From NCBI GenBank assembly GCA_018669475.1, contig JABHCC010000197.1, forward strand, positions 1 through 64,000: a DNA stretch of 64,000 nt, written 5' to 3'. Position 1 is the stretch's first letter. Every line of letters starts with the position of its first letter. Source of the stretch: Bacteroidota bacterium. Lineage in GTDB: Bacteria; Bacteroidota; Bacteroidia; Bacteroidales; UBA12481. A program made the translations under genes and the position numbers. Under the pieces are notes generated by a model that saw only the letters and a program-made list of their open reading frames with translations, was not told the origin of the DNA and did no database searches. Shown piece after piece: positions 31,708 through 36,642 of this stretch.

Positions 31708-31717
31708 TCAACTGTTA

Positions 31718-31744
31718 GACGTAAAAGTACGGGTTCAGGTTACA
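31718..31744 (-). promoter_or_regulatory. Predicted ECF-type promoter for the sigma gene
   Basis: On the minus strand TGTAACC (31744-31738) is followed after AAC by 17 bp and CGTCTAA (31721-31715), the AAC-N16/17-CGTC layout typical of ECF sigma factors. It lies directly before the sigma gene (start 31707), supporting autoregulation. Its -35 element is one arm of an inverted repeat (31738-31755). Confidence 0.5.
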
Positions 31745-31748
31745 GAAT

Positions 31749-31774
31749 TGTAACCGAAAGTAGAGAAGTGCGTC
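31749..31774 (+). promoter_or_regulatory. Predicted ECF-type promoter for the DUF6249 gene
   Basis: TGTAACC (31749-31755), then 16 bp after AAC, then CGTCATAA (31771-31778). This is the AAC-N16-CGTC ECF arrangement, and the start point near 31781 leaves a 33-base leader. Together with the minus-strand promoter, GGTTACA-GAAT-TGTAACC forms an 18-bp perfect inverted repeat, so the two -35 elements face away from each other and could not both be occupied at once. Confidence 0.5.
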
Positions 31775-31813
31775 ATAAGTTTGAAATTGAAATTTTAACA
31801 ATAAATAATAATT

Positions 31814-32176: not shown

Positions 32177-32196
32177 TTCATTTCCTCATCAAAGAA

Positions 32197-32233
32197 ACGG
32201 GCTTTTGGATATCCAGAAAGCCCGTTTTTTTTT
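32197..32233 (+). terminator. Rho-independent terminator after DUF6249 gene
   Basis: The stem ACGGGCTTT (32197-32205) pairs with AAAGCCCGT (32217-32225) around an 11-nt loop and is followed by nine T residues. It separates the DUF6249 gene from the export operon that follows. Confidence 0.92.
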
Positions 32234-32317: not shown

Positions 32318-33205
32318 GTGAAATTATCCATTGAAGAACTCACTCAAATTTATCGGAATGGCAATCGTGCACTAAAAGATGTTAATCTCGTTATCGAGGA
32401 TGGCATGTTTGGTTTACTAGGACCTAACGGTGCAGGAAAATCCACTTTGATGAAATTATTAGTAACCTTAATGAAGCCCTCAAGAGGTGGGATTACAATT
32501 AACGGTCAGGATCTACAGAAAAACAGAAGACAAGTAAGATCAGTCTTGGGATATCTTCCACAGGATTTTCGGTTTTTCGCTAAATTAAGCACATGGGAAT
32601 TCCTTGATTACTCTGCTCGACTTGCAGGTATCAAGGATAATAAGAAGAGGAATACTGAGGTTGAAACAATGCTTGAGGAAGTTGGATTATTCGATGTGCG
32701 TGACAGAAAAGCCAACAAACTCTCTGGTGGGATGAAAAGACGATTGGGGATAGCTCAGGCTCTTATTGGTGATCCAAAGATTGTTATTGTGGATGAGCCT
32801 ACCACCGGATTAGATCCGGATGAACGAATAAGGTTCAGGAACCTGCTCTCTAAGATGACTGAACAAGAGATGATCATTATTCTTTCGACCCATATTGTTG
32901 GCGATATTTCCAGTACCTGTAACAATATGGCATTATTGAATGAAGGCAAAGTCGTCTTCAATGGCCCACCCGATAATCTGGTTCAAAAAGCCAAAGGTCA
33001 CGTATTTCAGGTTGAGGTAGCAAATTCTGAATTTGAGATGGTAAATGAAAAATACAATGTTATTTCAACGATCCCATCGGTTAATGGTTGGGATATGCAT
33101 ATTGTGGCTGATGAATTAACAGAAATGCCTTCACAATTGGTTGAACCAAATCTGGAGCATGCCTATGTGTACTATATGGAACATGTTTTAAAAAATCAAG
33201 CCTAA
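32318..33205 (+). CDS. ABC exporter ATPase subunit
   Basis: A 295-residue ABC ATPase for an ABC-2 exporter. Walker A is GLLGPNGAGKSTLMK, the Q-loop GYLPQDF, the signature LSGGMKRR, Walker B IVIVDEPTTGLDP and the switch His STHIVGDISS. The C-terminal 75 residues form a small accessory domain (KGHVFQVEVANSEFEMVNEKYNVI) shared with the ATPase domain fused to the RND pump further down. The start is GTG at 32318; the only nearby ATG (32293) is out of frame. It is first in a seven-gene operon and probably pairs with the next gene's permease. Confidence 0.93.
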   Translation: MKLSIEELTQIYRNGNRALKDVNLVIEDGMFGLLGPNGAGKSTLMKLLVTLMKPSRGGITINGQDLQKNRRQVRSVLGYLPQDFRFFAKLSTWEFLDYSARLAGIKDNKKRNTEVETMLEEVGLFDVRDRKANKLSGGMKRRLGIAQALIGDPKIVIVDEPTTGLDPDERIRFRNLLSKMTEQEMIIILSTHIVGDISSTCNNMALLNEGKVVFNGPPDNLVQKAKGHVFQVEVANSEFEMVNEKYNVISTIPSVNGWDMHIVADELTEMPSQLVEPNLEHAYVYYMEHVLKNQA

Positions 33206-33216
33206 AAAAAAAGAAA

Positions 33217-36200
33217 ATGGGATATATGTCAAAAATCCAAACAGTTGCCCGCTTTGAAATGAAAACTCTTTTCAGAAGCTGGTTTTTTCGAATTTTTTCG
33301 GTTCTGACACTTTTTATTTTACTAGGAACCAATATTGGGATGTTAACAGATGGTGGGAATGTTAATCTGGTTATCAGATCCATTGCATCAAATATTCCAT
33401 ATATGAATATGGCATTTCTGAATATTGCACAAGCATTGCTGGCAATATTTCTGGCATCTGACTTTCTTAAAAGAGATAAGAAGCTTGACACTACAGAGGT
33501 TATCTATACCCGTTCAATGACTAATTGGGAATATGTTTGGGGTAAAACATTTGGTGTGCTGATCGTTTTTACGGTTTTGAACATATTGGTTTTTCTCATG
33601 GCCTTGATAATAAACATGGTTGTTTCAGGGGTCGAAGTTGATTATATGGCTTATCTGCTATATCCTTTACTCGTGGGCTTCCCAACTCTGTTGTTTACTC
33701 TTGGACTGGCGTTTTTTCTAATGTCTGCTATTAGAAATCAGGCGGTTACTCTTATATTGTTAATCGGACTGACAGCCTTGAGTCTGTTTTTTGTAAAAGA
33801 TAAAGTCAATCACCTCTTTGATTTTATGGCCTTCACTTTTCCAATGATGTGGTCAGATATGATTGGATCAGGTAATTTATTTGAGATATTGTTACACAGG
33901 GGAATATATTTATTTCTAGGTCTGGCATTTATTTTTGCAACAATACTATTGCTTAAACGTCTGCCTCAATCCCGTCCTTTTTCACTCTTATCTGTAGTTC
34001 TTATGACTGCTTTTTTCATTTTGGGAATTGGAGGTGGAGCTACATATTGGTCAACGTACAATAAAGATCAAAATTTCAGGCAGGAGGTAAAACAACTTAA
34101 TAACGAGGTAAGTAAATTGCCAATTAGCCTTGTGAAATCGTATGATTTAGAACTTGAACATCTGAATAAATCAATATTGGCGAGTGCAAGTCTGCAGCTT
34201 GATGAGCCTGCTGAGAATCTGCCTGAAGAATTAATATTTTCATTAAATCCCGGCCTTGTCATTGATGAGATAAAGCTAAATGGGAAAACTGTTGATTTTT
34301 CACGAGAAATGCATATCATCCGGATCAATAAACCAGGTGATTTGTCAGGAAACGTCGAGCTCCTCTTTAGCTATAAAGGAACTATTGATGAAAGAATCTG
34401 CTATCTTGATATTAAGGATGAGTATATGGCAGTCAAGCATGGACCGGCATTCATAATCGGTTCACCAAAAAGGCATGGCATTATTCAGGATAATTTTGTT
34501 TTATTAACTCCTGAAAGTGTTTGGTATCCAATCTCAGGTGGAACTTTCGGAACAAAGCTGTCTTCAAAACCTGTGATGAATTTTAGCACTTATAAACTAA
34601 ATGTTAAAACTCATGAAGGTCTTACAGCTATTTCTCAAGGGAAGGCTATTGAATCAGGTGATTCCTGGGAATTTACTTCCAACACTCCTTTCAAAGGTAT
34701 TAGTCTGGCAATTGGTGAATATGAGACTAAAACGCTCAACATAGATAGTTTGGAGGTGCAATTGAGTTATTATAAGGATCATAGCGGTTTCCTTGAAATA
34801 CTAGACCTTCTTGAGGATACTTTGCCAACCCTCGTGAAAGCAACATTTGAAGATTATGAGAGAAGCATTGGTCTTGATTATCCTTTCAATTTCTTAAAAT
34901 TGGTTGAGGCCCCGGTACAGTTTTACTCCTATGACAGAGTATGGTCAAAAGGCTATGATTATGTACAACCTGGAGTAATATTTTATCCCGAGAACCTATC
35001 ATTCTTGAGACGTGGAGATTTGGGTAAAGAACTTGAACGTGCGATTGATCGGGCAGTTGAGCGGGATAATCCTGCAAGTGATAAGGATCTTCAGATACAA
35101 GTTTTTAATAATGTAATCAGGAATAATTTTATACAGGGAGAAAGGGATTTCAGGATGATGATGAGAGGTGGAAATATGAACTTCTCCAGTTCGGATGAAA
35201 CACCATACAGCATTTTTCCAAATTATTTTAGTTTCGTTAATAACATAGAATCCAGTGATTACCAGTTAATCAATTCAGCTCTTGAATCCTATATTGGAAG
35301 TAAGAGTGGAGCGCAAGGAGGGTTTGCTTCAATGGGTGGTATATCTGATGAGGAGAAAGCCAATTTAGCTTTGGCTGAACATTCTTTCGCTGAATTAATG
35401 GACCTGCCGGATGAAAAAGATATTCTTCCATCAGTTATTGAGGCGAAGGGAAAGCAACTATTTAATTATTTGGAAGCAGTAATTGGGTCTGAAGAGTTCA
35501 TTACATTTATTACCGAAGAACTCAAAACAACAAGATTTAAAAATCTCAGTCTGCCCGAATTTGGACAGAATGTGATGGATAGATTCAATATTGATATCAG
35601 CGCTTTTCTGGAGAATTGGTACAGTGGTACTGATGTTCCTTCTTTTCTGGTGACTGATGTGAGAAACTACGAAATACAAGATGGTGATAATACTGTTTTC
35701 CAATTGTTCTTCACTATCTCAAATACAGGATCTACAGATGGAATTGTCAATGTTAGTTTCAGAACCGGAGGTGGAGGTGGAGGCCGAATGGGACATGGAG
35801 GTGGGGGTATGAGAAGTGGTGGAAGTCAAACAAGCTACGCCCTGGCAGGACGAGATGATGCTACAAACCTCTTGTATCTTATTCCGGCTGAAACAGCTTA
35901 TGAATACGCAATTATTCTTGACGATCCACCCAGAATGATGTCAGTCAACACATTAATTTCTTCCAATCTCCCTGCTTCAATTGCGTATCCATTTCCTGAT
36001 GTAGAGAAGAAAAGGATGGAAGCTGTTGAAAGTATAAGCGAAACCAAATTGATTACTTCATTGGCTGAAGCTCATGAGCTAATTGTTGACAATGAAGATT
36101 CCGGTTTCTCAACACATGAAGAAGGTTCCTCAAATAAGATGTCAGGATGGCTTGGAATTGATCAGAAAGAATCGGATTTCAAATATCAGGGAATGTATTT

Positions 36201-36642
36201 CTGGAGACCACCAATGACCTGGACACTTACTACTCAGTCGGGTTTCTATGGTGATTATATTCGTTCAGCCTGTTATACGCGAAGTGGGGAAGGTGAGCGA
36301 TTTGTGGAATGGGAAGCTGATATTGAAGAGGCTGGCTATTATGACGTGTATTGTTATCTCAATGAGTCGCTGTCAAGAATGGGCAGGTATCGGGGCCGGG
36401 GTGGAGATCGTGGAGGACGTGGAGGACGTGGTGGCTCTTCTGATATCAGCGATGTCTATCACTATACAGTTTATCATGACGAAGGTGAAGAAGAGGTTTC
36501 AAAGGCATTGTCAAATATTGAGAATGGATGGAATATGTTAGGTTCATTCTATTTTTCACCTGGCAAAGCAAAAGTTAAACTTACTAATGAGAATACTGGA
36601 AAAATGGTGGTTGCAGATGCTATCAAGTGGGAAAAACAATAA
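33217..36642 (+). CDS. ABC-2 permease fused to M1-like and golvesin-like domains
   Basis: An 1141-residue protein of three parts. Residues about 10-280 hold six to seven helices of an ABC-2 permease (FEMKTLFRSWFFRIFSVLTL, AIFLASDFLKRDKKLDTTEVIYTRSM). Residues about 300-830 are an extracytoplasmic region like the M1 aminopeptidases fused to ABC permeases in Bacteroidota, but no HExxH zinc motif is present, so it looks non-catalytic. A glycine-rich stretch (849-867) leads to a C-terminal domain (about 955-1141, DNEDSGFS to VVADAIKWEKQ) matching the golvesin C-terminal-like carbohydrate-binding fold, interrupted by an RG-rich loop (1058-1073). The role is probably export or envelope maintenance with sensing of a cell-surface ligand. 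Confidence 0.82.
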   Translation: MGYMSKIQTVARFEMKTLFRSWFFRIFSVLTLFILLGTNIGMLTDGGNVNLVIRSIASNIPYMNMAFLNIAQALLAIFLASDFLKRDKKLDTTEVIYTRSMTNWEYVWGKTFGVLIVFTVLNILVFLMALIINMVVSGVEVDYMAYLLYPLLVGFPTLLFTLGLAFFLMSAIRNQAVTLILLIGLTALSLFFVKDKVNHLFDFMAFTFPMMWSDMIGSGNLFEILLHRGIYLFLGLAFIFATILLLKRLPQSRPFSLLSVVLMTAFFILGIGGGATYWSTYNKDQNFRQEVKQLNNEVSKLPISLVKSYDLELEHLNKSILASASLQLDEPAENLPEELIFSLNPGLVIDEIKLNGKTVDFSREMHIIRINKPGDLSGNVELLFSYKGTIDERICYLDIKDEYMAVKHGPAFIIGSPKRHGIIQDNFVLLTPESVWYPISGGTFGTKLSSKPVMNFSTYKLNVKTHEGLTAISQGKAIESGDSWEFTSNTPFKGISLAIGEYETKTLNIDSLEVQLSYYKDHSGFLEILDLLEDTLPTLVKATFEDYERSIGLDYPFNFLKLVEAPVQFYSYDRVWSKGYDYVQPGVIFYPENLSFLRRGDLGKELERAIDRAVERDNPASDKDLQIQVFNNVIRNNFIQGERDFRMMMRGGNMNFSSSDETPYSIFPNYFSFVNNIESSDYQLINSALESYIGSKSGAQGGFASMGGISDEEKANLALAEHSFAELMDLPDEKDILPSVIEAKGKQLFNYLEAVIGSEEFITFITEELKTTRFKNLSLPEFGQNVMDRFNIDISAFLENWYSGTDVPSFLVTDVRNYEIQDGDNTVFQLFFTISNTGSTDGIVNVSFRTGGGGGGRMGHGGGGMRSGGSQTSYALAGRDDATNLLYLIPAETAYEYAIILDDPPRMMSVNTLISSNLPASIAYPFPDVEKKRMEAVESISETKLITSLAEAHELIVDNEDSGFSTHEEGSSNKMSGWLGIDQKESDFKYQGMYFWRPPMTWTLTTQSGFYGDYIRSACYTRSGEGERFVEWEADIEEAGYYDVYCYLNESLSRMGRYRGRGGDRGGRGGRGGSSDISDVYHYTVYHDEGEEEVSKALSNIENGWNMLGSFYFSPGKAKVKLTNENTGKMVVADAIKWEKQ

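Follow-up and report, generated by a model that had tools for sequence, protein, structure and literature searches.

Divergent ECF-type promoters predicted to link an autoregulated sigma factor operon with a DUF6249 gene in Bacteroidales

The window analysed here, a stretch of 64,000 nucleotides from a Bacteroidales genome (contig JABHCC010000197.1), very probably contains an autoregulated ECF sigma factor gene that is accompanied by the gene for a putative anti-sigma factor with two transmembrane segments, and that has a divergently oriented DUF6249 gene as its conserved target. Two divergent promoters of a single type, TGTAACC-N15/16-CGTC, would drive the sigma operon and the DUF6249 gene. 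On receipt of a signal, the neighbouring membrane protein would let go of the sigma factor, which would then activate both its own operon and, in the opposite direction, DUF6249; expression of the two would thus rise in concert, whatever function DUF6249 may have in the circuit. The promoter of the sigma gene and that of its target share the same motif, which is the sequence signature of an autoregulated ECF sigma factor and from which we predict autoregulation.

The sigma protein matches PF04542 (45.8 bits), PF08281 (37.6 bits) and TIGR02937 (sigma70-ECF), all over their cut-offs, and its closest solved chain is SigW (E 3.8e-16). It matches only sigma domains, those of regions 2 and 4, as is characteristic of ECF (group IV) sigma factors. 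Against NF058625, the NCBIfam model of the GFO_1088/PG0214 ECF family, the protein reaches only 70 bits for a cut-off of 130, and two of its relatives score 109.8 and 87.2 bits. Its ATG is directly preceded by an in-frame TGA, so that any start farther upstream would place this stop codon inside the gene. The open reading frame of 146 codons behind the sigma gene has the layout of a transmembrane anti-sigma factor, with an N-terminal stretch followed by a transmembrane segment, as judged by hydropathy only. We call its product only a putative anti-sigma factor, a role that its position and topology suggest, because it contains no recognised anti-sigma domain; neither Pfam nor NCBIfam gives the window protein a match above cut-off. 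A small open reading frame follows the sigma gene in 59 of the 60 order-level loci described below, 55 of them with two predicted transmembrane segments, and the remaining locus ends too early to show it. On the other side, the DUF6249 gene is followed by a hairpin with a T run that resembles a terminator (Table 1), which a consensus scan did not list. Past this hairpin, positions 32318-36642 hold an ABC ATPase gene and then a gene for a protein of 1141 aa with a golvesin C-terminal domain, whose ABC2-membrane and M1-peptidase matches are below threshold. Por_Secre_tail matches number at least 150 in the genome, from the scoring of 150 out of 177 candidates, in keeping with Bacteroidota. Four sister-genus genomes carry a second ECF sigma gene ca. 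4-5 kb from the sigma orthologue (G004:C6:69657-70196, G005:C88:14111-14659, G006:C103:107195-107734 and G011:C177:5952-6497).

Table 1. Features of the sigma-DUF6249 module, in positions of the window
Feature	Position	Strand	Description and basis
Putative anti-sigma factor, 146 aa	30683..31123	-	Position and topology; two predicted transmembrane segments; start overlaps the sigma stop
ECF sigma factor, 194 aa	31123..31707	-	Sigma70_r2 and Sigma70_r4_2 domains
Predicted sigma transcription start	31708..31708	-	10 nt past the C of CGTC, counted as -10; leader about 1 nt long
-10 element CGTC, sigma promoter	31718..31721	-	N17 spacer; sequence, chance test, conservation
Inverted repeat GGTTACA-GAAT-TGTAACC	31738..31755		Sequence, chance test, gap in relatives
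-35 element TGTAAC, sigma promoter	31739..31744	-	Sequence, chance test, orthologue conservation
-35 element TGTAAC, DUF6249 promoter	31749..31754	+	Sequence, chance test, conservation in 45/57 DUF6249 genes
-10 element CGTC, DUF6249 promoter	31771..31774	+	N16 spacer; sequence, chance test, conservation
Predicted 5' leader, DUF6249 mRNA	31784..31813	+	About 30 nt; -10 cytosine rule
DUF6249 protein (PF19762), 120 aa	31814..32176	+	Three predicted transmembrane segments
Hairpin and T run resembling a terminator, past the DUF6249 gene	32191..32231	+	-22.6 kcal/mol, z -6.3

The two promoters lie back to back between the sigma and the DUF6249 genes, and their -35 elements together make up a perfect inverted repeat with 7 bp per arm, GGTTACA (31738-31744) and TGTAACC (31749-31755), around GAAT (31745-31748). 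The TGTAAC hexamers within it have 4 bp between them and their centres are 10 bp apart. The original prediction had described this repeat as giving TGTAACC on each strand, and reading the sequence directly bears it out, together with the proposed distances from AAC to CGTC, which are 16 nt for the plus-strand promoter and 17 nt for the minus-strand one. Its search pattern, TGTAACC-N13/14-CGTC, was two bases short and misses both sites, because the real spacers are N15 and N16. Both sites combine AAC in the -35 element and CGT in the -10 element with a spacer near 16-17, as in ECF-type promoters, and the comparison of relatives presented below supports the proposal that one of them faces the DUF6249 gene and the other the sigma gene. 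In the window, TGTAACC-N10-18-CGTC has two matches, both at this promoter pair, as compared with a mean of 0.05 and a largest count of 1 in 100 shuffled windows, none of which reached two. A scan for sigma-70-type promoters returned 3 sites for 2.8 expected. Just past the plus-strand CGTC, TAAGTTTG (31776-31783) fits TAnnTTTG, the -7 box of the primary sigma factor in Bacteroidota (PMC9723704, PMC7366714); a comparison by eye with two relatives (L007 and L008) did not show it at the equivalent position, and the match is probably due to chance.

Conservation was evaluated at the level of the order by searching 149 genomes with the sigma protein and reading all 60 matches at E <= 1e-24. Ten of these sigma genes sit behind a DUF6249 gene in the same direction, forming DUF6249-sigma operons. 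Upstream of the other 50, within 250 nt, we found an exact TGTAAC-N15-17-CGTC in 48, while the other two have one mismatch each, which falls on the C that opens CGTC in either case; the motif is thus present upstream of orthologous sigma genes, where its absence was to count against the original prediction. Six further loci, either weaker than E 1e-24 or absent from the sigma matches (L016, L140, L141, L144, L145 and L147), extend the set to 56 sigma upstream regions, with the exact motif in 52, as compared with a mean of 0.02 and a maximum of 2 for 1000 letter-permuted motifs (rows dropped as non-ATG duplicate or fragment: L075 and L144). When spacers of 8 to 25 were scanned, solely those of 15 (2 loci), 16 (35 loci) and 17 (15 loci) occurred at the sigma promoters.

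The same motif precedes the DUF6249 genes. We found 59 of them, 45 with the exact motif and 52 with at most one mismatch; excluding two genes cut by contig ends (L072 and L142), the exact motif appears in 45 of 57, for a maximum of 1 with permuted motifs on the same 57 regions. The motif is also specific, since none of the upstream regions of 20 paralogous ECF genes, taken from the weaker sigma matches, contained it even with one mismatch allowed. A divergent DUF6249 gene is present in the stretch read for 38 of the 50 non-operon sigma loci; the 12 loci without it include some that are cut by contig ends, and in three of these genomes a DUF6249 gene that lies apart from the sigma gene, 3 kb away in one of them and on other contigs in two, keeps the exact motif. 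Before the DUF6249 gene of the ten DUF6249-sigma operons, the motif is exact in three, has one mismatch in three and is missing from four, one of which is a paralogous, co-directional DUF6249-sigma pair in the genome of the window (G000:C15:28081-28971, L075). This operon form also appears in several relatives. Two distant loci from a separate search for relatives (26 and 22% identity), with no DUF6249 by tblastn, were not used.

The neighbourhood of both genes extends beyond the order. Across the phylum we sampled 296 genomes, of which 72 have a sigma match at E <= 1e-22, and read the best-scoring 29 new loci. Each of these has DUF6249 as a neighbour, divergent in 26 loci and co-directional in 3. 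Among the 18 loci of the same class, 15 show the exact motif (N17) at both promoters, two have one mismatch before the sigma gene and one, co-directional, has no motif. None of the 11 loci outside the class has the exact motif; six have one mismatch before the sigma gene and five lack it. These six keep TGTAACC and change the first base of CGTC, one of the sites being 84 nt from the start codon. In five loci outside the class (L166, L174, L176, L181 and L184) that base is A or G and the start codon is still 10-12 nt off, which might reflect a drift of -10 specificity. The DUF6249 neighbourhood is thus phylum-wide in our sample, and the exact promoter code is a class-level trait.

The motif by itself shows no enrichment. 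In the whole genome, and with the reversed pattern as a rough control because its word composition differs, TGTAACC-N10-18-CGTC has 5 matches, two of them at the promoter pair, versus 17 for the reversed pattern. TGTAAC-N15/16-CGTC gives 18 versus 19 in the same genome, in a count that omits spacer 17 and hence misses the sigma promoter itself, and TGTAACC-N15/16-CGTC gives 313 versus 419 in the 149 genomes. The weight of the evidence therefore rests on the pairing of the sites, their position and their conservation, on which the identification of both as ECF promoters is strongly supported. The original prediction had offered the motif as a testable handle on the regulon: testable it is, although with another spacer. 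Once corrected, the motif shows no genome-wide enrichment. This suggests that the regulon of the sigma factor is probably small.

Individual sites point nonetheless to a further candidate target. The genomes of eight members of the family of the window contain 32 motif matches, 15 of which are module sites; we inspected 15 of the other 17 (two were without locus) and 12 of them fall inside a stop-to-stop reading frame of 120 aa or more. Only one site outside the module recurs ahead of the same gene in the two genomes of the genus, a TGTAACC-N16-CGTC upstream of an M1-type metallopeptidase gene, at 106 and 43 nt from the ATG (G000:C161:2474-3998, L004 and L234, and G001:C207, L225 and L235). 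Among 12 of 13 matches to M1 homologues that were inspected, the motif is exact in two, the genus pair, has one mismatch in one and is missing from nine, one of which lacks its start on the contig. From its promoter motif, the M1-type peptidase gene is likely to belong to the regulon of the sigma factor as a third target.

Position -10 was assigned to the C of CGTC, as for RpoE of E. coli (PMC8103513), and the sigma mRNA would accordingly start about 1 nt before the ATG, while the DUF6249 mRNA would carry a leader of about 30 nt. The sigma start codon is found 8-14 nt past CGTC in 41 of the 48 exact order-level loci, so that the sigma mRNA is predicted to be near-leaderless. In the other seven, 19-55 nt separate CGTC from the start codon as picked, and two of these have an alternative in-frame ATG at 10 or 11 nt. 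The distance is 8-11 nt in the 15 class-level loci, and that from CGTC to the DUF6249 start codon is 26-101 nt in the 45 exact cases. Within this phylum, leaderless mRNAs amount to 5.5% in Flavobacterium psychrophilum (PMC9723704), and 5' UTRs under 10 nt to about 3.7% in Bacteroides thetaiotaomicron (PMC7366714).

The close packing of both promoters admits several explanations. An exact opposite motif lies within 700 bp of the sigma motif in 40 order-level loci and is absent in 15 of 55. The gap between the hexamers is 3, 4, 4, 4, 4, 4, 5 and 10 bp in the eight divergent loci of the family of the window, all eight being tight, and the centre-to-centre distance is 9-11 bp, about one helical turn, in seven of them; in contrast, the gap is 14-354 bp in 32 other order-level loci and 21-219 bp, from differences of positions, in 15 class-level loci. 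These wide gaps outside the family indicate that the inverted repeat is an incidental result of two identical -35 elements having come close together in a single family, in what looks like the compaction of a small intergenic region. At about one turn of spacing, the geometry makes joint occupancy by two polymerases unlikely and mutual exclusion within this family plausible, so probably only one polymerase would be bound at a time. The original prediction saw in this a switch, with a polymerase on one -35 element blocking the other and the cell alternating between autoregulation and target expression. Steric hindrance would fit this idea, as would the maintenance of the tight gap in the whole family in spite of an identity of just 39-43% between the window sigma and those of the sister genus, but the circuit does not need a tight gap in the rest of the order or class. 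Besides, if a single sigma factor serves both promoters, exclusion would fix their ratio and cap their sum, and it could not choose between them. We thus consider a switch quite improbable. Simple competition for one sigma factor could instead split the polymerase between the sigma and DUF6249 genes in a fixed proportion, set by the strengths of the two promoters and independent of the level of sigma. Such a lock on the ratio, which the family gaps of 3-10 bp would favour, is compatible with the autoregulated circuit and would be an addition to it; it is, however, rather unlikely, since a small intergenic region passed down in this one family may be all that lies behind the short gap, and a functionless compaction is no less likely.

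Two other alternatives concern the identity of the protein that binds these sites. The perfection of the 7-bp repeat could suggest an operator for a dimeric regulator instead of two -35 elements, yet the arms are from 3 to 354 bp apart among relatives, each keeping its own CGTC at N15-17, and single arms with CGTC precede DUF6249 genes located away from the sigma gene, which leaves this explanation with hardly any credibility. It is also conceivable that both promoters are read by another ECF sigma factor of the cell and not by the adjacent one. The genome does contain further ECF-like genes (29 first-look candidates, with three matches at E <= 1e-15), and an overlap between ECF regulons has been suggested for a flavobacterium (PMC9723704). 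Against this, the motif tracks this particular orthologue group, being exact upstream of 48 of 50 orthologues and of none of the 20 paralogues, so we regard recognition by another sigma factor as very unlikely. The adjacent sigma factor would then be the one reading both sites in the autoregulated circuit.

AAC and CGT elements and autoregulation are general traits of ECF sigma factors (PMC8103513). The module shares with autoregulated ECF sigma/anti-sigma operons a protein with sigma-2 and sigma-4 domains, an AAC -35 and a CGT -10 element at its own gene (PMC8103513), and a membrane protein encoded next to sigma. Unlike them, it has a second promoter of the same type, divergent and before DUF6249, a start codon of sigma that nearly coincides with the predicted transcription start and a putative anti-sigma factor outside the recognised families. 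In ECF41, with a regulon reported as small, the motif is TGTCACA-N16-CGTC and a neighbouring COE gene is the main target (PMC3426412); a bipartite motif ending in CGTC and a neighbour gene as target are thus common to both systems. However, the -35 element of the window is TGTAACC and not TGTCACA, its target is DUF6249 and not COE, a putative anti-sigma gene lies behind sigma, and the sigma of 194 aa shows sigma domains only, without the C-terminal extension of ECF41; we therefore do not assign it to this group. The rpoE7 and SMb20530 promoters of Sinorhizobium meliloti also contain TGTAAC near the start (PMC6180224), although this is another phylum and, in our own reading of the sequences given there, the -10 element is CGAA and not CGTC. 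Within the phylum, a CGT box at -10 has been ascribed to ECF sigma factors in F. psychrophilum, where one SM6 promoter precedes an ECF/anti-sigma pair; the SM6 targets named in the part of the source available to us are T9SS genes and others, with DUF6249 not among them (PMC9723704). The accessible part of PMC12596196 makes no mention of DUF or autoregulation. Our search of the literature, in which subscription journals were mostly uncovered, found DUF6249 only in plant gene family work, as far as those texts were accessible, and found no TGTAAC ECF promoter in Bacteroidetes. Likewise, the accessible literature on TGTAAC/CGTC ECF promoters did not contain the module, the papers listed on back-to-back promoters contributed nothing to the question, and neither the promoter-DUF6249 module nor the ECF group has a name in the texts, mostly outside subscription journals, that the search covered.

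As a tentative generalisation, which we hold as doubtful, the window might represent an ECF group without a name in the texts covered that is class-wide, with its neighbourhood phylum-wide, whose core regulon would consist of the sigma factor itself and DUF6249, with a leaderless sigma mRNA in spite of the rarity of such mRNAs in the phylum and, in one family, a double promoter locking the ratio at a spacing of one helical turn. To our knowledge, few ECF promoters are defined in Bacteroidota; a promoter code, TGTAACC-N15/16-CGTC, and a conserved target are now at hand for an ECF group. Since sigma start codons are consistently kept so near the promoter, leaderless translation of a regulator is a sharp prediction, and DUF6249, a family of unknown function, becomes tied to one regulatory circuit.
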